Assembly: GCF_001536285.1 (NCBI RefSeq)
Contig: NZ_FAOZ01000003.1
Span: 62,001-126,000, forward strand
Direction: 5' to 3'
DNA: 64,000 nucleotides
From: Parafrankia irregularis
GTDB taxonomy: Bacteria; Actinomycetota; Actinomycetes; Frankiales; Frankiaceae
Made by a program: the position numbers and the translations under genes. The notes under the pieces are model-generated. The model was not told the DNA's origin and made no database searches. It saw nothing but the letters and a program-made list of their open reading frames with translations. Below, piece by piece: positions 34,207 through 63,786 of this stretch; within the stretch, counting starts at the first letter, position 1; every line of letters starts with the position of its first letter.

Positions 34207-35210
34207 CCAGCCCCGATGTCGTGGCGAACACCACCACCGGATCCAGGACCGCCCCGGCCGGCACCACAGCCGACGGCACCACACCTGACGGCACCTCGCC
34301 CAACAACACCCCGCCCAACAACACCCCGCCCGACAACACCCCACCGCCGGCCACGGCTGCGCCCGGCGCGCTTCCCGACGTGCCCGCGGTGCACGAGCGA
34401 CGCTCGATCCTGGTCGCGCTGTCCTTCGGCTGGCTGATCGCGATGATCCTGCTGGCCGCCATCGCGGACCTGCTGCCGCTGACGTCCTACTCGGTGCCGA
34501 TCGGCCGGCCGCGCCAGCCACCGAGCTTCGAGTCGTTCGACATGCTTCTGGGCACCGACCAGCAGGGCCGATCCATCCTCTCCCGCTGCATCTACGGCGC
34601 CCGGGTGTCCCTGCTCGTCGGCACCGCCGCCGGCCTCATCGGCGCGGCCATCGGCACCTTCTTCGGGATGCTCGCCGGCTACCTCGGCGGGCGTACCAAG
34701 GCCGTCATCGGCCTGATCACCGACGCCATGCTGGCCTTCCCGCCGCTGATCCTGCTGCTGGCCCTGTCCTCGATCCTCACCCCCAGCGTGCGGACCCTGC
34801 TGGTCGGCCTGACACTGCTGATCATTCCGACCTTCGTGCGCCTCGCGCTGGCCAACACCATCGCCTGGTCGTCGCGCGAGTTCGTCACGGCCGCCCGGAA
34901 CATGGGCGCCGGCCACGGCCGGATCCTGGTCAAGGAGATCCTGCCCAACCTGCTCCCCCCGCTGGGGGCGTTCCTGCCCGTCGTGATGGCGGCCCTGATC
35001 GTCGCCGAAGGCTCGCTGAGCTTCCTGGGCGTGGGCATCCCACCACCGCAGCCGAGCTGGGGCGGCATGATCGCCGACGGCAAGGACGCCATCGAGAACG
35101 CCCCGCACATGGTCTTCGTGCCGGCCGCCGCCATTTTCCTCACCGTGTTCGCCCTCAACCAGGCGGGCGACCATCTACGCCACCGATTCGACCGCACTCT
35201 GCGCGACTAG
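34203..35210 (+). CDS. Peptide/nickel ABC transporter permease (DppC type)
   Basis: A 335-residue partner permease. Family segments are LLGTDQQGRSILSRCIYGAR, the docking loop REFVTAARNMGAGHGRILVK and GIPPPQPSWGGMI. The first ~65 residues are an unusual Thr/Asn/Pro extension with three copies of PNNTP or PDNTP, encoded by a 15-bp repeat at 34299-34343. The GTG start overlaps the previous stop by four bases. The stop TAG (35208-35210) sits inside the first unit of a 16-bp tandem array whose other copies read CAG at that place, so the present C-terminus depends on one base of a repeat. Confidence 0.9.
   Translation: MTSPDVVANTTTGSRTAPAGTTADGTTPDGTSPNNTPPNNTPPDNTPPPATAAPGALPDVPAVHERRSILVALSFGWLIAMILLAAIADLLPLTSYSVPIGRPRQPPSFESFDMLLGTDQQGRSILSRCIYGARVSLLVGTAAGLIGAAIGTFFGMLAGYLGGRTKAVIGLITDAMLAFPPLILLLALSSILTPSVRTLLVGLTLLIIPTFVRLALANTIAWSSREFVTAARNMGAGHGRILVKEILPNLLPPLGAFLPVVMAALIVAEGSLSFLGVGIPPPQPSWGGMIADGKDAIENAPHMVFVPAAAIFLTVFALNQAGDHLRHRFDRTLRD
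34299..34343 (+). repeat. 15-bp in-frame tandem repeat, three copies
   Basis: Three copies of cccaacaacaccccg (third copy with two changes) encode PNNTP, PNNTP, PDNTP in the N-terminal extension of the DppC-type permease. The 15-bp period preserves the reading frame. Confidence 0.85.
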
Positions 35211-35258
35211 CACCGGGCGCGACCAGCACCGGGCGCGACCAGCACCGGGCGCGACCAG
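35201..35258 (+). repeat. 16-bp tandem array across a stop codon, 3.6 copies
   Basis: Unit gcgcgaccagcaccgg repeats from 35201 to 35258. The first copy has T at the place where later copies have C (gcgcgactag versus gcgcgaccag), and that T makes the TAG stop of the DppC-type gene. The 16-bp period would shift frame in every copy if translated. Confidence 0.9.
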
Positions 35259-35440
35259 CCACCTCTTTGACCGCAGGATGCGCGGCCGCCGCCGCAGCCG
35301 GACCCGGCCCGTGGGCGCGGTGTCGGCCGCGGTGCCTGCCACACGTGCGGTTCACCGGGATGTCCGCCACCTCGGGCGACGGTCGGGACGCCGTGGCCCG
35401 CCCGGACATCGACGTGCTCCACCACAGCGAAAGGCAGCAA

Positions 35441-37050: not shown

Positions 37051-38154
37051 ATGAGCATCGAGTCCGTCAAGAGCGCTCCGCAGGCAACGAGCGCCGAGCC
37101 CACCGGCAGCGCCGAGCCCACCAACAGCACTGAGCCCACCGGCAGCGCTGGGCCTGTTCTGCAGGTGCGCAACCTGCGTGCGTACATCGGCACCCCACGC
37201 GGTGTCGTCCGGGCCGTCGACGACGTCTCCCTCGACCTCGACCACGGCCAGGCGCTCGGTGTGGTCGGCGAGTCCGGGTCCGGCAAGTCGGTGATGGCTC
37301 GGGCGATCATGGGGCTGATGCCCGGGCGGTCCGCCTGTTCGGGTGAGGTCCTGTTCCAGGGCCGGGACCTGCTCTCCCTCCCCCGCCGGCAGCGCGCCGA
37401 GATCTGGGGCAAGCAGATCGCGATGGTGTTCCAGGACCCCGGTCGGTCGCTCAACCCGGTCGTCCGGGTGGAGCGCCAGCTCACCGAGGGAATGCGACGC
37501 CATCTCGGCGTCAGCCGTACCGAGGCGCACACCCGGGCCCTCGACCTCCTGCGGGAGGTCGGGGTGCCCGACCCCGAACGGCGGCTGCGCAACTACCCGC
37601 ACGAGCTCTCCGGCGGGATGCGCCAACGCGTCATGATCGCGACCGCGCTGGCGTGCGAGCCGACGCTGCTGATCGCCGACGAGCCGACCACGGCGCTGGA
37701 CGTCACCGTCCAGCGCCAGATCCTCGACCTGCTGCGGCGGGTGCAGCGCAGCCACGGCATGTCCATGATCCTCATCAGTCACGACCTGGCCATCGTCGCC
37801 GGACGCACCGACCGGACCGCGGTGATGTACGCCGGCCGGCTCGCCGAGGCCGGCTCCACCGGCGAGGTCTTCGGCGCGCCGCGGCACCGCTACACCCACG
37901 CGCTGCTCGAGGCGACACCCACCCTCACCCACGAACGCCACTCACCGATGCGCCTCATCACCGGCTCCCTGCCCGACCCGACCGACCCACCGGCGGGCTG
38001 CCGGTTCGCGCCGAGATGCGCGCACGCCGACGCCGCGTGCTCCGAGCCGGGGCCGACGATGGCCTCCGTCGGCGCTGACCACCAGGTCGCCTGTCTGCGT
38101 CCCGCGCAGACCGGTACCGAGAACCTCACCGGAGGTGAGCTCGTTGGCCGGTAG
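37051..38154 (+). CDS. Peptide/nickel ABC transporter ATPase (DppD type)
   Basis: A 367-residue ATPase. Walker A is GESGSGKS, the signature is LSGGMRQR, Walker B ends in [12 protein letters not shown] and the switch His lies in LISHDLAIV. The C-terminal oligopeptide-transporter domain has [15 protein letters not shown], whose cysteines suggest an Fe-S site as in related ATPases. The N-terminal 36 residues are a low-complexity tail with three 18-bp repeats ([18 protein letters not shown]; 37093-37146) absent from most homologues. The ribosome site GGAGGAGAGG is strong. It overlaps the next ATPase gene. Confidence 0.93.
37093..37146 (+). repeat. 18-bp in-frame tandem repeat, three copies
   Basis: Three copies of an 18-bp unit (gccgagcccaccggcagc and variants) at 37093-37110, 37111-37128 and 37129-37146 encode (A/T)EPT(G/N)S near the N-terminus of the DppD-type ATPase. 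The period keeps the frame. Confidence 0.85.
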
Positions 38155-39316
38155 CGGGACCGCGCATCTACGTGGCGAGGAAGCCCTGCTCAGCGTGCGG
38201 GAGCTGGTCGTCGAGTACCCGACGGGCGGCGGGGTCGTGCAGGCCGTCTCGAAGGTGAGCTTCGACGTCCTGCCCGGCAGGACGCTCGGCATCGTCGGCG
38301 AGTCCGGCTGCGGCAAGTCCACCACCGGTCGGGCCGTGCTGCGCCTCGACCGCCTCACCGCCGGCGAGATCACCTTCGCCGGCGAGCGCATCGACGGTGT
38401 GAGCGAGAACCGGATGCGCGAGCTCCGCCGCTCCATCCAGATGATCTTCCAGGACCCGGTGGGGTCGCTGAACCCCCGGCGCGCCGTCAGAGACATCGTC
38501 GTCGAGGGCCTCGCCGTCGCCGGGGTACCGAAGTCCGAGCGCGCGACCGCCTCGGCGGAGGTTCTGTCGCAGGTGGGGCTCGGCGGCGAGCGGTTCGCCG
38601 ACATGCTGCCGCGCCAGCTCTCCGGCGGGCAGGCCCAGCGGGTCGCGATCGGGCGCGCGCTCGCGCTGCGGCCCCGCCTGCTGATCTGCGACGAGCCCGT
38701 CTCCGCGCTGGACGTCTCCGTGCAGGCGCAGATCCTCAACCTGATCGAGGAGCTCAAGGCCGAGTTCGACCTGACCGTCGTGTTCATCGCCCACGACCTC
38801 GGGGTGGTGCGGGCGGTCAGCGACGACGTCCTGGTCATGTATCTCGGCAAGGTGTGCGAGTTCGGCGACGCCGACCTGGTCTACGACCAGCCCGCGCACC
38901 CCTACACCCGGGCGCTGCTCGACTCGGTGCCGCTGACCGACGCCGGTCGCGGCTTCACCGGCCCCGCGCTCGAGGGGGACCTGCCCTCACCGCTGGCGCC
39001 GCCGTCCGGCTGCCGCTTCCGGACCCGCTGCCCGCGGGCCGAGGAGCGCTGCGAGGCCGAGGAGCCACCGGTCCTCGAGATCCGTCCCGGACAGTTCGCC
39101 GCCTGCCACTTCCCGCTGACGCCGGTGACGGTGGCCGTGTCGGCCGCACCGGCGGACACCGCCGTCGAGCCGGAGCCCACCCCGACCGCCGATGCGACGC
39201 CCACGCCCACGCCCGATGCCACGCTCACGGCCCAACCCACGTCCACGAACGAAGCCGAGCCGGCCACCGGGCAGAAGACGACCAAGGTGCTCAGCGGCCC
39301 GGACGCCACCGGGTGA
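38144..39316 (+). CDS. Peptide/nickel ABC transporter ATPase (DppF type)
   Basis: A 390-residue ATPase. Walker A is GESGCGKST, the signature LSGGQAQRV, Walker B ends in LLICDEPVSALD, and the C-terminal GCRFRTRCPRAEERC carries the conserved cysteines. I start at TTG 38144, since GGAGGT lies seven bases upstream; GTG 38135 is in frame but overlaps that site. The gene overlaps the previous one by 11 bases. The last ~60 residues form a Pro/Thr/Ala-rich tail (PEPTPTADATPTPTPDATLT) not normal for this family. Function: powers the importer with the DppD-type subunit. Confidence 0.9.
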   Translation: MAGSGTAHLRGEEALLSVRELVVEYPTGGGVVQAVSKVSFDVLPGRTLGIVGESGCGKSTTGRAVLRLDRLTAGEITFAGERIDGVSENRMRELRRSIQMIFQDPVGSLNPRRAVRDIVVEGLAVAGVPKSERATASAEVLSQVGLGGERFADMLPRQLSGGQAQRVAIGRALALRPRLLICDEPVSALDVSVQAQILNLIEELKAEFDLTVVFIAHDLGVVRAVSDDVLVMYLGKVCEFGDADLVYDQPAHPYTRALLDSVPLTDAGRGFTGPALEGDLPSPLAPPSGCRFRTRCPRAEERCEAEEPPVLEIRPGQFAACHFPLTPVTVAVSAAPADTAVEPEPTPTADATPTPTPDATLTAQPTSTNEAEPATGQKTTKVLSGPDATG

Positions 39317-42193: not shown

Positions 42194-43369
42194 ATGTCAA
42201 GTTCCTTAAAAGAGAGTGGCCTGTTCATCGTCGACGCGGACTCCCACTGGTCCGAGCCGCCGGATCTGTTCACCAGGCGCGCGCCGGAGGCGTATCGCGA
42301 CCGGGTTCCGCGGGTGGCCGATGTCGACGGCACTCCTATGTGGATCTTCGACGGCAAGCCGGTGGGGCGCTTCAGCGCCGCCGGTGTCATCGGGCGCGAC
42401 GGCCGCAAGGAGGCCGCCGACATCGCCCTGCACCACTGGACGGTCGACCAGGTGCACGTCGGGGCCTACGACCCCCAGGTCCGCCTCGGGGTGCTCGACG
42501 AGTGCGGCATCGACGCCCAGATCATCTTCCCGAGCACGATCGGCCTGGGCGGCCAGGACCTCGGCGCCGCCAGCGACCCGGCGCTGACCAGGCTTTCCGT
42601 CGAGATCTACAACGACGCGATGGCCGAGATCCAGAGCGACTCGAACAACCGGCTGCTCCCGCTGCCGCTGATGCCCGCCTGGGACGTCGACCTGTGCGTG
42701 CGGGAGGCCAGGCGCGTGCACGCGCTCGGCGCCCGCGGGGTCAACATGACCTCCGACCCGCAGGACCTGGGCGCCCCGGACCTGGCCAACCGGGCCTGGG
42801 ACCCGTTCTGGGAGGTCTGCACCGAGCTGCGGCTGCCGGTCCACTTCCACATCGGGGCCAGCGTCACGACGATGACGTTCTACGGCAAGTACCCGTGGGA
42901 GTCCCACAGCAGCAACACCAAGCTCGCCATCGGCGGCACACTGCTGTTCATCGGGAACGCCAGGGTCGTCACCAATCTCATTCTCTCCGGTATCTTCGAC
43001 CGGCATCCGGGGCTGAAGACGGTGTCGGTGGAAAGCGGCGTCGGCTGGATCCCCTTCATTCTCGAGGCCCTTGACTACGAGATGTCGGAGAACGCTCCGG
43101 AAGAACTCGCCGCACTGAGCAAGGCGCCCTCCGAGTACTTCCGCAGCAACATCTACGCCACCTTCTGGTTCGAGAAGAACCGGAACAAGCTACCGGCCCT
43201 CATCGAGGCCGTCGGCGAGGACAACATTCTTTTCGAGACCGACTTCCCGCATCCGACCTGCCTGTACCCGAACCCGCTGGAGACCGTCGCGCCCAAGCTG
43301 GCGACGCTCGCTCCCGAGACCCGGGCGAAGATTCTCGGGGAGAATGCACGCAAGCTGTACCGGCTCTGA
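42194..43369 (+). CDS. Amidohydrolase, ACMSD/LigW-like
   Basis: A 391-residue amidohydrolase-superfamily TIM-barrel protein. The metal site opens with VDADSHWSEPPDL, His ligands appear in LPVHFHIGAS, and the Asp ligand lies in FETDFPHPTCLYPN. This branch contains decarboxylases and hydrolases of ring-cleavage acids (ACMSD, 5-carboxyvanillate decarboxylase). No ribosome site precedes the ATG at 42194, so a short-leader or leaderless mRNA is possible. The stop codon lies in the first unit of a 17-bp tandem array. It pairs in context with the divergent alpha/beta hydrolase. Confidence 0.87.
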   Translation: MSSSLKESGLFIVDADSHWSEPPDLFTRRAPEAYRDRVPRVADVDGTPMWIFDGKPVGRFSAAGVIGRDGRKEAADIALHHWTVDQVHVGAYDPQVRLGVLDECGIDAQIIFPSTIGLGGQDLGAASDPALTRLSVEIYNDAMAEIQSDSNNRLLPLPLMPAWDVDLCVREARRVHALGARGVNMTSDPQDLGAPDLANRAWDPFWEVCTELRLPVHFHIGASVTTMTFYGKYPWESHSSNTKLAIGGTLLFIGNARVVTNLILSGIFDRHPGLKTVSVESGVGWIPFILEALDYEMSENAPEELAALSKAPSEYFRSNIYATFWFEKNRNKLPALIEAVGEDNILFETDFPHPTCLYPNPLETVAPKLATLAPETRAKILGENARKLYRL

Positions 43370-43425
43370 CCCTGCACCGGCTCTGACCTTGTACCAGCGC
43401 TGACCTTGCACCAGCTCTGACGCAT
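43360..43425 (+). repeat. 17-bp tandem array over a stop codon, about 3.9 copies
   Basis: Units of form ccggctctgaccctgca start at 43360, 43377, 43394 and 43411, with one to three differences each. The first unit supplies the last codons and the TGA stop of the amidohydrolase (43367-43369). Each later unit also contains a TGA. Confidence 0.85.
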
Positions 43426-45094: not shown

Positions 45095-45152
45095 GCCTCC
45101 CCGTGTTTACCGGCTCGCGTTCCCGGCTCCCGCTTTCCCTGCTCCCGCGTTC

Positions 45153-56000: not shown

Positions 56001-57389
56001 CTACGGGCACTGGCGGGGCTCGGGCTTCTCCGCCGCGGGCATCACGACGTCGTAGGCCCGCGCGGTCAGGGACAGCCCGTCCGGGCCGCTGGAGGCCTCG
56101 ACGATGTTCAGGTCGAGCGGCAGCTGGCCCACCGGGATCGGCAGCGCCGGCAACAGCGAGCCACCCGGAATCGGGATGGAGAGGTTGATGGCACCGCGCA
56201 GCGCGACCTCGCTGGGTACCAGCGTCAGGACGTTGTTGCGGACCTCGAAGGTCGTCACCCCACCGACCTCCTGGGCCCCGAGCAGCGGGATGTCGACACG
56301 CCCGGAGATCTCGATCCGCCGACCGCCGTCGACCGGGTTGACCTGGATCTCACCGGGCAGCCCGGCCAGGTAGGTGTTCAGGTCGGCGTAGTCCAGCCGC
56401 ACCGTCGCCCGGATGTCATCGACGGGTACCTCGCCGACGTTCCCCGAGATCATGTCCCCGAGCGGCACGTGGATGCCGTTGAGCCTGGCCTGCACCCAGG
56501 AGATCCGCGGCCCCGGCGTGGGGATCCCCTCGATGGTCACGCCGATGTCCTTGAACGTGCCGGACAGGATCTGGGTGAGGAACGGGAAGCCGCCGATGGT
56601 GACATCACGCACCGTGGGCGCCGGCACGCCACAGTCCAGGCCCTCGAGCACCGCGACCTTGATCTGCTTCGCCATCTGGCCCTCGGCCACCGCGACCGCG
56701 GCGCGGTCACCCGCGATGAGCAGGACCAGCACCACCAGCAGCGCCACCACGGCGCGCACCCCACGGCGGCGACGCCTCGGCGCCGGCGCCCCCTGGACAC
56801 CGACGGCCTGCGGACCGTCCGGAGGCATCCCGGCACCCGCAGGCGGCCCGCCGGCCTCCGCGGGAGGTGCTCCCCAGTCGGCTGACGGTGCTCCCCAGCC
56901 GGCGGGAGGGCTCTCACCACCCGGGTACGGTGCCTGCGCGACCGCGGCCGGATCCCATCCGCCGGGATGGGGTGCCCCCTCGTCGGGCGGCCGTGACCAG
57001 ACGCTTTCCTCCGGGCGCTGCCACCCGCCATACCCGGGCCTGGGCCCGGGCCCGCTGACATCCGCGGACTCGTCCAACCGCCAGGTCGGCGTGGCTGATG
57101 CCTGGCGGGTCGGTGGAATCTCCCCCACCGTCGGCACCCCGAGCTCCGCCGGATCCACCTGGTACGCCGGTTGAGCGGAATGCGCCTCGCGGCCGTGGTA
57201 CCCGGCATCGCTGTGCCCGGCATCGCTGTGCCCGGCATCGGCGTTCCCTGCATCGGCTGGTGTCAGCGGAGCCTGCGGCTGGGCGCGACGCGGAAGACGC
57301 ATCGTCGGATGGTCGGTGTCGGTGGATGGCGGCGCCGGCGCCGGGCTCGACGGATCCACGGGCCGTTCCCCGTCACCGCCGTGATCCAC
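56001..57389 (-). CDS. LmeA-like phospholipid-binding membrane protein (DUF2993)
   Basis: A 462-residue protein. The first ~205 residues are Pro/Ala/Gly-rich and disordered, with a repeated DAGHS motif from a 15-bp array (57198-57257). A single transmembrane helix follows at ~213-232 (AVVALLVVLVLLIAG). The rest is a DUF2993/LmeA domain (VLEGLDCGVPAPTV, ARLNGIHVPLGDM). LmeA in mycobacteria binds lipids outside the membrane and helps lipomannan growth. The GTG start follows GGGAG. The long disordered N-terminus would lie in the cytoplasm. Confidence 0.85.
   Translation of the reverse strand: MDHGGDGERPVDPSSPAPAPPSTDTDHPTMRLPRRAQPQAPLTPADAGNADAGHSDAGHSDAGYHGREAHSAQPAYQVDPAELGVPTVGEIPPTRQASATPTWRLDESADVSGPGPRPGYGGWQRPEESVWSRPPDEGAPHPGGWDPAAVAQAPYPGGESPPAGWGAPSADWGAPPAEAGGPPAGAGMPPDGPQAVGVQGAPAPRRRRRGVRAVVALLVVLVLLIAGDRAAVAVAEGQMAKQIKVAVLEGLDCGVPAPTVRDVTIGGFPFLTQILSGTFKDIGVTIEGIPTPGPRISWVQARLNGIHVPLGDMISGNVGEVPVDDIRATVRLDYADLNTYLAGLPGEIQVNPVDGGRRIEISGRVDIPLLGAQEVGGVTTFEVRNNVLTLVPSEVALRGAINLSIPIPGGSLLPALPIPVGQLPLDLNIVEASSGPDGLSLTARAYDVVMPAAEKPEPRQCP
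57198..57257 (-). repeat. 15-bp in-frame tandem repeat, four copies
   Basis: Units such as gtgcccggcatcgct at 57198, 57213, 57228 and 57243 encode D-A-G-(H/N)-(S/A) repeats in the N-terminal part of the LmeA-like protein. The 15-bp period keeps the frame. Confidence 0.85.
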
Positions 57390-59184: not shown

Positions 59185-59281
59185 GCGGTGTGGGCTCCCG
59201 TTCCGAACCAGGCCGGGCCGGGCGGTTCCTGACGGCACCGCCCGGCCCGGACCGTGGTGGCTTCCGGCTCCATGCCGGCCT

Positions 59282-59320
59282 GGTTACGTGAGCCGGCCTG
59301 GGTTACGTGAGCCGGCTGTG
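59282..59320. repeat. 19-bp tandem duplication near a stop codon
   Basis: Unit ggttacgtgagccggcctg at 59282-59300 is followed by a near copy from 59301 with a small change at its end. It lies 10 bases past the stop of the NitT/TauT-type binding protein (complement of 59330-59332). Confidence 0.75.
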
Positions 59321-61613: not shown

Positions 61614-61764
61614 CCCAGGCCTCCGGCTGTCAGCAACGCGATACGACGGCCTTGCCGGAGGCGGCGAGAGATCATCCGGTGTGGGCGTGATGTGGCTAGC
61701 CTGATGCGGAGCGGCGCTGGACACGTGGACGGAAGCGGCGCCCGGCCAGCGCGGGGGGTCTGCG

Positions 61765-63786
61765 GTGCGGGGTCTGCGGGGGAACACTGTGCGGCGAGGC
61801 AACACTGTGTGGCGGGGAAAGACTGTGCGGCGGGGAAGCACTGTGCGCGCCGGTACGGTCACGCTTGCCGCCGCGCTCGCCGCGCTGACCCTCCTCGGTG
61901 TGCTGGGTACCAGCCCCGGCGCGGCAGTCGTCCGTGTCACCGACAGCGGCGCCTGGCTGTGGAGCGCGGCAAAAGGCTGGGTCACCCACGTGAACGGCCC
62001 CTCCGGCGCCCCTGACTTCAACGTCGAGCTTGCGGCAGCCCGCGGGCATCCCGTCGAGCTGGCGCAGGACGGCGTGTCGGTCCTGGTCACCGATCTGCGG
62101 ACCGGAGTCGTCAGCCGTATCGACCCGGCGACGATGGACCTCGCCTCCCGGCAATTCGGGCCGGCGGGGGCCGACGGCTCCACCGGTGCGGTGCGGGTGG
62201 TGGCCCGGGACGAGCTCGCCTTCGTGATCGAGACCGACAGTGGCCTGGTGACCCGGATCGACCCACGAACCCTCGACATCATCGGCGAGCAGATCTCCGT
62301 CGGAGCGCGCGTCACCGGGGCCGGCATCGACGCGGACGGTGTGCTCTGGGTGGTGGTCGCCGAACGCGGCGAGGCCGTTGCGATCAGGGATGGCCGGCGG
62401 CTGGCCACGGTGCCGGTCGCCGCGCCACGTTCCACGTTGGGCCTGACCATCGCCGGCGGGCAGCCTGTGGTCATCGACGCGACCTCACCCGCGCTGGTGC
62501 CGGTCACTGCCACCGGCGCCCACCCGGCGGTCAGCCTCCCGGCACCTGCGGGCGGCAACCGCCGTCTGCTGGTGGCCCCGACGATCGAGGGACGTGTCGT
62601 CCCGGTCCTGGTGGAGGGCACCGGCACCGTGCTGCTCGTCGACCTGGACGCGCACGACGGCGACGGATCGACGCAGCAGGTACAGCTGGCCGGGCAGCGA
62701 CCGTCGCCGGACCTCGGCGCCCCGGTCATCGAGGCCGGCCGGTTGTACGTGCCGGACAACGGCACCGGCCGCGTTCTCGTCTACGACCGGTCAGCGGGAC
62801 GATTCGAAGCTCCGATCCAGCTCGCCGGCGACGCGGGCATGGTGACGTTGTTCGTCCGCAACGGCACCGTGTGGGCGAACAACACCGACGGGACGAGCGC
62901 TGTCGCGGTCGACCCGGACGGCCGCCGCCGTGACGTCGACAAGTACGCCCCGGACCTGGCGGTGCCGGTGGCGAACGCCAGCACGAGCGCCCCGCCGCCG
63001 GTCGTTGTGCCGTCCGCGCCCGGACAGCAGATCCCGCCGACCGTCCGCCCGAGCCGCGCCGCCAGGCCGACCGTGCCCGCACGCACCCAGCCCGGTGCCG
63101 CCCCCAATCCGGTACCCGGTACAGGCCAGCCGCCGACGACCGCGGCCCCGCCTCGGCCACCGGACACGGCTACGGTGCCGTCGGTGATCGCCACGTTGCC
63201 GCCCACGACAACGCCGGCGGCCGTGCCTGGCCAGCCGTCCATCACCGCGGGCTCCGCGTCCGGAGCCGTCATCTTCACGGTGGCCGCGGGTGCCGGCGGG
63301 CCTGCCACCACGTTCACCGTGAGCACGAGCCTGGGTACGAACGAGACGCTGCAGGGCTCAGGGAGCCTTTCCGTGCCGACGACCGGCTGCCAGACCGTCT
63401 CCGCGACGGCGACCGCCACCGGGCCGGGTGGTACATCCACCTCCTCGACACCGGCGCAGGCGCTGGGCTGCGTCCCACCCGGACCGGTGCGAAATCTCGA
63501 CGTGGTCGGGGTCGGCCTGGGGACCGACGATCCGAAGCGGAGAATCACCTGGCAGCCGCCACTCGACGACGGCGGTGGGCCCCTTGAGTACGTCGTCACC
63601 ATCACGAACTTCGGCAACCCGGGTGAGTACCCGCCGGAGACCTACACCACGACCGGACTCGTATTGGACGTCGTCGGCTACACCGGCGGTACGGACACCT
63701 GCGCATCGTGCCAGGACTTCACAGTCCAGGCACGGAACGCGGCGGGTACCGGGGCGGGCCAGACCAACAGAGCGCGTTCCGAGTGA
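61765..63786 (+). CDS. Secreted protein with propeller-like and Fn3-like domains
   Basis: Up to 673 residues. A signal peptide (TVTLAAALAALTLLGVLG) is followed by a repeated beta-strand region (~50-400) with VLVTDLRTGVVSRIDP and LWVVVAERGEAVAI, which suggests a beta-propeller. A Pro/Thr/Ala linker (~410-490) and one or two Fn3-like domains (RNLDVVGVGLG, then YVVTITNFGN) complete it. The first ~30 codons contain four 18-bp repeats, each with a GTG, so the true start may be 61765, 61789, 61807, 61825 or 61843; the last gives the most normal signal peptide. Likely extracellular, function unknown. Confidence 0.75.
   Translation: MRGLRGNTVRRGNTVWRGKTVRRGSTVRAGTVTLAAALAALTLLGVLGTSPGAAVVRVTDSGAWLWSAAKGWVTHVNGPSGAPDFNVELAAARGHPVELAQDGVSVLVTDLRTGVVSRIDPATMDLASRQFGPAGADGSTGAVRVVARDELAFVIETDSGLVTRIDPRTLDIIGEQISVGARVTGAGIDADGVLWVVVAERGEAVAIRDGRRLATVPVAAPRSTLGLTIAGGQPVVIDATSPALVPVTATGAHPAVSLPAPAGGNRRLLVAPTIEGRVVPVLVEGTGTVLLVDLDAHDGDGSTQQVQLAGQRPSPDLGAPVIEAGRLYVPDNGTGRVLVYDRSAGRFEAPIQLAGDAGMVTLFVRNGTVWANNTDGTSAVAVDPDGRRRDVDKYAPDLAVPVANASTSAPPPVVVPSAPGQQIPPTVRPSRAARPTVPARTQPGAAPNPVPGTGQPPTTAAPPRPPDTATVPSVIATLPPTTTPAAVPGQPSITAGSASGAVIFTVAAGAGGPATTFTVSTSLGTNETLQGSGSLSVPTTGCQTVSATATATGPGGTSTSSTPAQALGCVPPGPVRNLDVVGVGLGTDDPKRRITWQPPLDDGGGPLEYVVTITNFGNPGEYPPETYTTTGLVLDVVGYTGGTDTCASCQDFTVQARNAAGTGAGQTNRARSE
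61783..61854 (+). repeat. 18-bp tandem repeat carrying ribosome-site and GTG modules
   Basis: Four units at 61783, 61801, 61819 and 61837 follow aacactgtgcggcggggA with small changes. Each holds an in-frame GTG, and each of the last three GTGs is preceded by a G-rich purine stretch (ggcgaggc or ggcgggga) ending six bases upstream. In translation the units give (N/K/S)TV(R/W)(R/A)G. Confidence 0.85.

Follow-up and report, generated by a model that had tools for sequence, protein, structure and literature searches.

An in-frame 18-bp tandem array at the 5' end of a Parafrankia irregularis gene: probable minisatellite growth in a signal-peptide n-region, with a start-like codon in every copy

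A gene for a protein of 673 amino acids in Parafrankia irregularis (positions 61765 to 63786, plus strand) carries five in-frame GTG codons at its 5' end, the last four of them in a tandem repeat with an 18-bp unit. This raises the question of whether the gene is translated from several starts, the number of which would follow the number of repeat units, or whether a repeat has simply grown within its coding sequence. A first-pass annotation of the window, as we call the whole stretch of 64,000 nucleotides that was analyzed, had favored the former and described a slippage-tunable initiation region. The source genome, that of a soil actinobacterium, comprises 9.54 Mb in 82 contigs. Judged by eye from its basic and hydrophobic N terminus, the protein is probably exported or membrane anchored. 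A Pfam search with the protein returned no family above the cutoff, and its structure model is of low confidence (mean pLDDT of 54, and below 50 in residues 1 to 105), showing one N-terminal helix (residues 32 to 43) and mostly strands in the rest. The reading frame is open from 61705, and the first start codon in it is the GTG at 61765. Further upstream, the bases CTA..CT (61696 to 61702) are identical in all five of the sequences that we aligned (see below), and the −10-like block TAGCCT at 61697 to 61702 (plus strand) may be part of a promoter; a sigma-70 consensus scan found no site. Directly downstream of the gene lies a convergent ORF (L084:2805-4970, minus strand) with chorismate-binding and glutamine amidotransferase domains, of the anthranilate or aminodeoxychorismate synthase type, and beyond it are two FecCD transporter ORFs.

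The array is real, as are the in-frame position of its roughly four units and the five potential starts named in the annotation. TRF places it at 61776 to 61847 (plus strand; 4.0 copies, 83% matches, score of 102), where it encodes (N/K/S)TV(R/W)(R/A)G repeats of the signal-peptide n-region. Read as codon blocks from 61783, the copies are NTVRRG, NTVWRG, KTVRRG, and STVRAG. Their likeness is close only for blocks 1 to 3, which are mutually identical at 15 to 16 of 18 positions, whereas block 4 agrees with them at just 11 to 12 of 18, its second half being similar to the flanking sequence in an ortholog that lacks the array (from Parafrankia sp. EUN1f). The choice of start would indeed alter nothing but the basic n-region, since 9, 7, 5, 3, or 1 Arg and Lys residues (counted by hand on the translation) precede the hydrophobic stretch when the start is at 61765, 61789, 61807, 61825, or 61843, respectively. 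A whole-genome search found no other copy of the unit with 0 or 1 mismatch, which rules it out as a dispersed element; with 2 mismatches, it matched 66 places, compared with 50 for a reversed-pattern control for which all matches were counted. The RNA structure signal was not unusual (z = −0.29).

In order to rank the candidate starts, we scored their Shine-Dalgarno (SD) pairing in two ways, using for all duplex energies an assumed anti-SD sequence rather than one taken from the 16S rRNA gene of the host. A 16S rRNA search of the 82 contigs returned nothing; its control was positive in just 9 of 14 well-known genomes, so that the gene may have been missed or may fall into an assembly gap. The first scoring covered bases −20 to −3 and was compared with 1,560 sampled internal GTGs. 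The GTG at 61765 to 61767, with a G-run at 61753 to 61758, 6 nt upstream of it, reached −10.6 kcal/mol, and 2% of the internal GTGs were equally strong. The corresponding values were −8.6 (7%) for the GTG at 61789 to 61791, −6.5 (20%) for that at 61807 to 61809, −5.9 (28%) for that at 61825 to 61827, and −6.1 (26%) for that at 61843 to 61845 (all on the plus strand). The second scoring was restricted to bases −16 to −5 and was compared with 4,916 internal ATG or GTG codons and with 339 unambiguous starts. In the same order, the energies were then −8.9, −8.6, −5.8, −5.7, and −5.7, with 0.8%, 1.3%, 6.6%, 7.2%, and 7.2% of the internal codons and 13%, 18%, 43%, 46%, and 46% of the unambiguous starts equally strong. 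The three later copies are thus ordinary by the first scoring (20 to 28% of internal GTGs as strong) and better with restricted spacing (about 7%). Given both rankings, the SDs of the repeat copies are believable yet middling, and that of 61765 is the best of the five. The annotation had assigned a G-rich SD to the last three GTGs only; those three do have one, but a G-rich stretch ends 6 to 7 nt before each of the four repeat GTGs, and the best SD among them belongs to 61789, which uses an older GGGGG run that is also present in relatives.

The relatives single out the same start. We scanned a collection of genome contigs with the protein from 61840 onward, which yielded three loci, and searched 6 genomes of the genus, Frankia sp. 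EI5c among them, which yielded those three loci, a paralog in the host genome, and weaker matches. A 200-amino-acid query against 16 genomes of the family retrieved, besides the two copies of the host, just weaker relatives with 29 to 38% identity. Leaving the weaker matches out, we aligned the start region of the gene with those of four relatives, namely the EUN1f ortholog in syntenic position (L002; 86% identity), a locus of EI5c (L003; 62%), the host paralog (L011; 59%), and a paralog in EUN1f (L012; 59%), which lies on the same contig as L004. The array is absent from all four. The G-run of 61765 is aligned in all five sequences, and each of the four relatives has a GTG or ATG after it, aligned with 61765, with a duplex energy of −12.5 kcal/mol in every case. 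The start at 61765, which the annotation had listed as one of five alternatives, is therefore both the conserved and the best-paired one and the most likely main start, and the GTGs at 61789, 61807, 61825, and 61843 are possible secondary ones. At the position of 61789, the EUN1f ortholog reads CAC GCT GTC, with GTC where the repeat has GTG. It also has two more start codons nearby, GTG 2959 and ATG 2977, and the latter, 9 nt past the aligned GTG and with an SD of −8.7, may be its real start. Counted on the translations from the aligned starts, the relatives have 4 to 6 basic residues in this region, or 3 in the EUN1f ortholog if it starts at ATG 2977.

The comparison with this nearest relative also confirms that the number of units varies, and at the same time it shows that such change is common to arrays of this region rather than peculiar to the 673-amino-acid gene. 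Over its right half, from 32.3 kb onward, the window aligns to a 102-kb contig of EUN1f in six syntenic blocks with 90.7 to 96.5% identity; two weaker EUN1f matches (71% and 79%) are located elsewhere. The window holds 23 arrays with a score of at least 60; no pair of flanks could be located for 12 of them, and two more (19809 and 51228) were set aside for inconsistent flank mapping. Among the nine left, seven are of another length in EUN1f, the differences amounting to whole or nearly whole units; the set favors longer copies in the window, because it was chosen from arrays that are present there. Relative to the window, EUN1f lacks two 15-bp units at 34292 to 34342, two 18-bp units at 37090 to 37148, and one 6-bp subunit of a 24-bp period at 39175 to 39238, all three in called genes. 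It also lacks three 17-bp units at 43356 to 43421, an array with 14 of its 66 bases in a gene and the others past the gene end, and two 15-bp units at 57201 to 57255, where the only overlap is with the 5'-extended part of an ORF. At 59274 to 59316, in no called gene, EUN1f is longer by one unit, of 17 instead of 18 to 19 bp, and at 61776, in the 673-amino-acid gene, it is 45 bp shorter, i.e., by three 18-bp units less 9 bp. The array at 45116 is unchanged. That at 35201 to 35259 (16 bp, 3.7 copies) has been replaced, with 176 bp between the same flanks in EUN1f and only the first unit recognizable. Since seven of nine arrays differ, inside as well as outside genes, unit gain and loss are common in this region, and minisatellite turnover, as far as these alignments tell, seems to be frequent in the lineage.

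How unusual the array is depends on what is counted. For these counts, genes were called by a home-made codon score rather than a published gene finder. Tandem arrays are common, with 459 of score 50 or more in 864 kb. Among arrays whose period is a multiple of three and that have at least 2.5 copies, start codons that recur at least three times with the period of the array are present in 2 of 49 at gene starts versus 11 of 114 in gene interiors, so that iterated starts at gene 5' ends do not form an enriched class. The other gene-start array with iterated starts is a 15-bp array (G000:C1:199251-199320, minus strand, within L038) that spans a called gene start and has four in-frame start codons in PPGGM repeats. 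When arrays are disregarded, equally spaced chains of at least four start codons occur at 3 of 528 gene 5' ends, this gene included, versus 11 of 6,530 interior stretches, an excess that is biased upward because the 5' stretches begin with a start codon by construction. The bare number of starts is only mildly unusual, given that 36 of 626 genes have at least five in-frame ATG, GTG, or TTG codons in their first 30 codons and 6 of 626 have at least five GTGs (the 673-amino-acid gene being included in each count). We then counted chains of SD-plus-start modules 15 to 21 nt apart in 1.66 Mb, about 17% of the genome. At each of three thresholds, a chain of four modules is present at 1 of 909 gene starts, that of the gene under study, and in none of 7,648 interior stretches; chains of three are present at one more gene start, at two of the thresholds, and in as many as 11 interior stretches. 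At one gene start (G000:C1:374944-374980, minus strand, within L047), three start codons follow one another in frame every 18 nt, and each of them shows SD-like pairing at two of the three thresholds; this site does not count among the arrays found to carry iterated modules. We also read 180 arrays, each with a period that is a multiple of three and at least three copies, on both strands; of these 360 cases, 2, 4, or 11, depending on the threshold, repeat such modules at least three times with the period of the array. Applied to 55 gene-start arrays, the rate from arrays other than that at 61776 leads to an expectation of 0.15, 0.46, or 1.5 such arrays in the sample, with the scoring region and thresholds of both this analysis and the chain census picked after the array was known. 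The SD-plus-start array is thus mildly surprising in the sample at the strictest threshold and not at the laxest, and for the genome as a whole it does not clearly exceed the chance expectation. What does exceed chance is the array itself, unlike its iterated start codons.

Given that four relatives without the array keep one older start, we regard ordinary repeat growth as the most likely explanation: a minisatellite has probably expanded in the n-region of a gene whose main start would be 61765, with additional starts that would be weak or silent. A stretch of six codons (18 bp) in the n-region would have become tandemly repeated in the lineage of the host; the difference from EUN1f is seen by comparison, while its direction and its cause, slippage or unequal exchange, are what we infer. 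The n-region is rich in Arg and Gly codons (CGG and GGN), so that every copy would carry a G-run; with the Val codon GTG 6 to 7 nt past that run in the copied stretch, every copy would come to resemble an SD with a start. Translation would proceed mainly from the conserved GTG at 61765, as its conservation and SD strength suggest, giving a lengthened basic n-region with 9 Arg and Lys residues ahead of the hydrophobic stretch, and the copied GTGs would add little or nothing as starts. Several results count against this explanation. The codon usage of 61765 to 61842 is unlike that of genes (summed log-odds of −7.1), the repeat SDs, scored with restricted spacing, exceed those of about 93% of internal ATG or GTG codons and come near the median of unambiguous starts, and the gene has the sole fourfold chain among the 909 gene starts. 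The possible ATG start in L002 and the assumed anti-SD sequence weigh in the same direction.

The two results on SD strength and on the fourfold chain speak for natural multisite initiation, in which every unit would load ribosomes and start in the same frame, so that unit number would tune output. The anatomy matches a published engineered device as far as sequence and the accessible text go (PMC9723656), which keeps this reading alive, and the unit number does differ from that of the sister genome EUN1f. On the other side, the modules are absent from the four relatives, 0.15 to 1.5 such arrays are expected by threshold, and the repeat SDs are weaker than that of 61765. Also, according to the same text, a single initiation site was all that the engineered modules yielded in Escherichia coli (PMC9723656), and in the available part of another report tandem sites brought no gain in Bacillus megaterium (PMC10821235). 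We therefore consider it unlikely that the units act in this manner, and equally unlikely that they produce n-regions of graded length, differences that signal peptidase would erase. Somewhat less probable again is a naturally evolved multisite leader, in which growth of the minisatellite unit by unit would add in-frame SD-plus-GTG modules and act as a heritable translation dial; to the same low degree we credit the corollary that the varied n-regions of an exported protein would be removed with the signal peptide. Of the slippage-tunable initiation first proposed, the in-frame units, the GTGs, their plausible SD spacing, and the differing unit number stand, but the copied starts are missing in the four relatives.

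A true start within or past the array, e.g., at 61843, with the array as a 5' leader element, is improbable. The codon usage of the array speaks for it: 61843 is the top start by codon likelihood alone, and a codon-based caller puts the start there because codon usage from 61765 to 61842 is poor, which the copying of a few rare codons (ACT and GGA) may explain. Against it, conservation covers both the start codon and the G-run at the place of 61765, the unit length is divisible by three and the frame is open across the array, RNA structure gave no signal, and with a start at 61843 one basic residue would remain ahead of the hydrophobic stretch versus the 4 to 6 (or 3) of the relatives. That the units are operator-like direct repeats to which a protein binds, with incidental GTGs, is hardly credible despite the regular 18-bp spacing 3' of the conserved −10-like block, as the repeats are absent from the four relatives and the genome holds no further copies with 0 or 1 mismatch and, with 2 mismatches, 66 places against 50 for the control.

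If the copies are silent, the locus would be a plain case of a signal-peptide n-region that tolerates minisatellite growth. If they serve as starts, the array would be nature's counterpart of a synthetic-biology part, and such a genome, in which many 15- to 18-bp arrays vary between close relatives, would be a good hunting ground for more. A literature search for natural tandem initiation sites found none among the matches listed, which is no proof of absence, and the accessible part of one paper has "tandem repeats" once, in a reference (PMC2770080). The engineered counterpart is that of Zhang et al. (2022), who, in the text available, combined tandem RBS-plus-GTG modules and obtained output that rose with RBS number up to six, with 5-fold GFP from six modules in Bacillus licheniformis and one protein band per RBS (PMC9723656). 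There, the SD-to-SD distance had to be 15 to 21 nt, an SD-start spacing of 8 nt was best, and the extra start codons were needed; the modules were also used in Bacillus subtilis and Corynebacterium glutamicum (PMC9723656). Like these, the present array repeats an SD and a GTG in one frame, with an 18-nt period that falls within their spacing limits and an SD-start spacing of 6 to 7 nt (PMC9723656). Unlike them, it is natural, has weaker SDs, no designed hairpins, and a conserved upstream start, and its starts are candidates only; its modules are not kept in relatives, which would be expected of an old natural device and is not required of an engineered one. With bacterial coding minisatellites (VNTRs), the array shares imperfect head-to-tail units that, given a start of translation at 61765, lie within a reading frame and have a period divisible by three, and a unit number that differs between related genomes, here compared with one genome per species. 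It differs from them in sitting on a start region, with start-like codons. Some phase-variable loci, such as the Haemophilus lic genes, likewise have a repeat near the gene 5' end and more than one start codon; in the present array the copies are imperfect and, because an 18-bp unit keeps the frame, a change in unit number causes no on/off switching. Among these systems, we file the array of the 673-amino-acid gene with the coding minisatellites.
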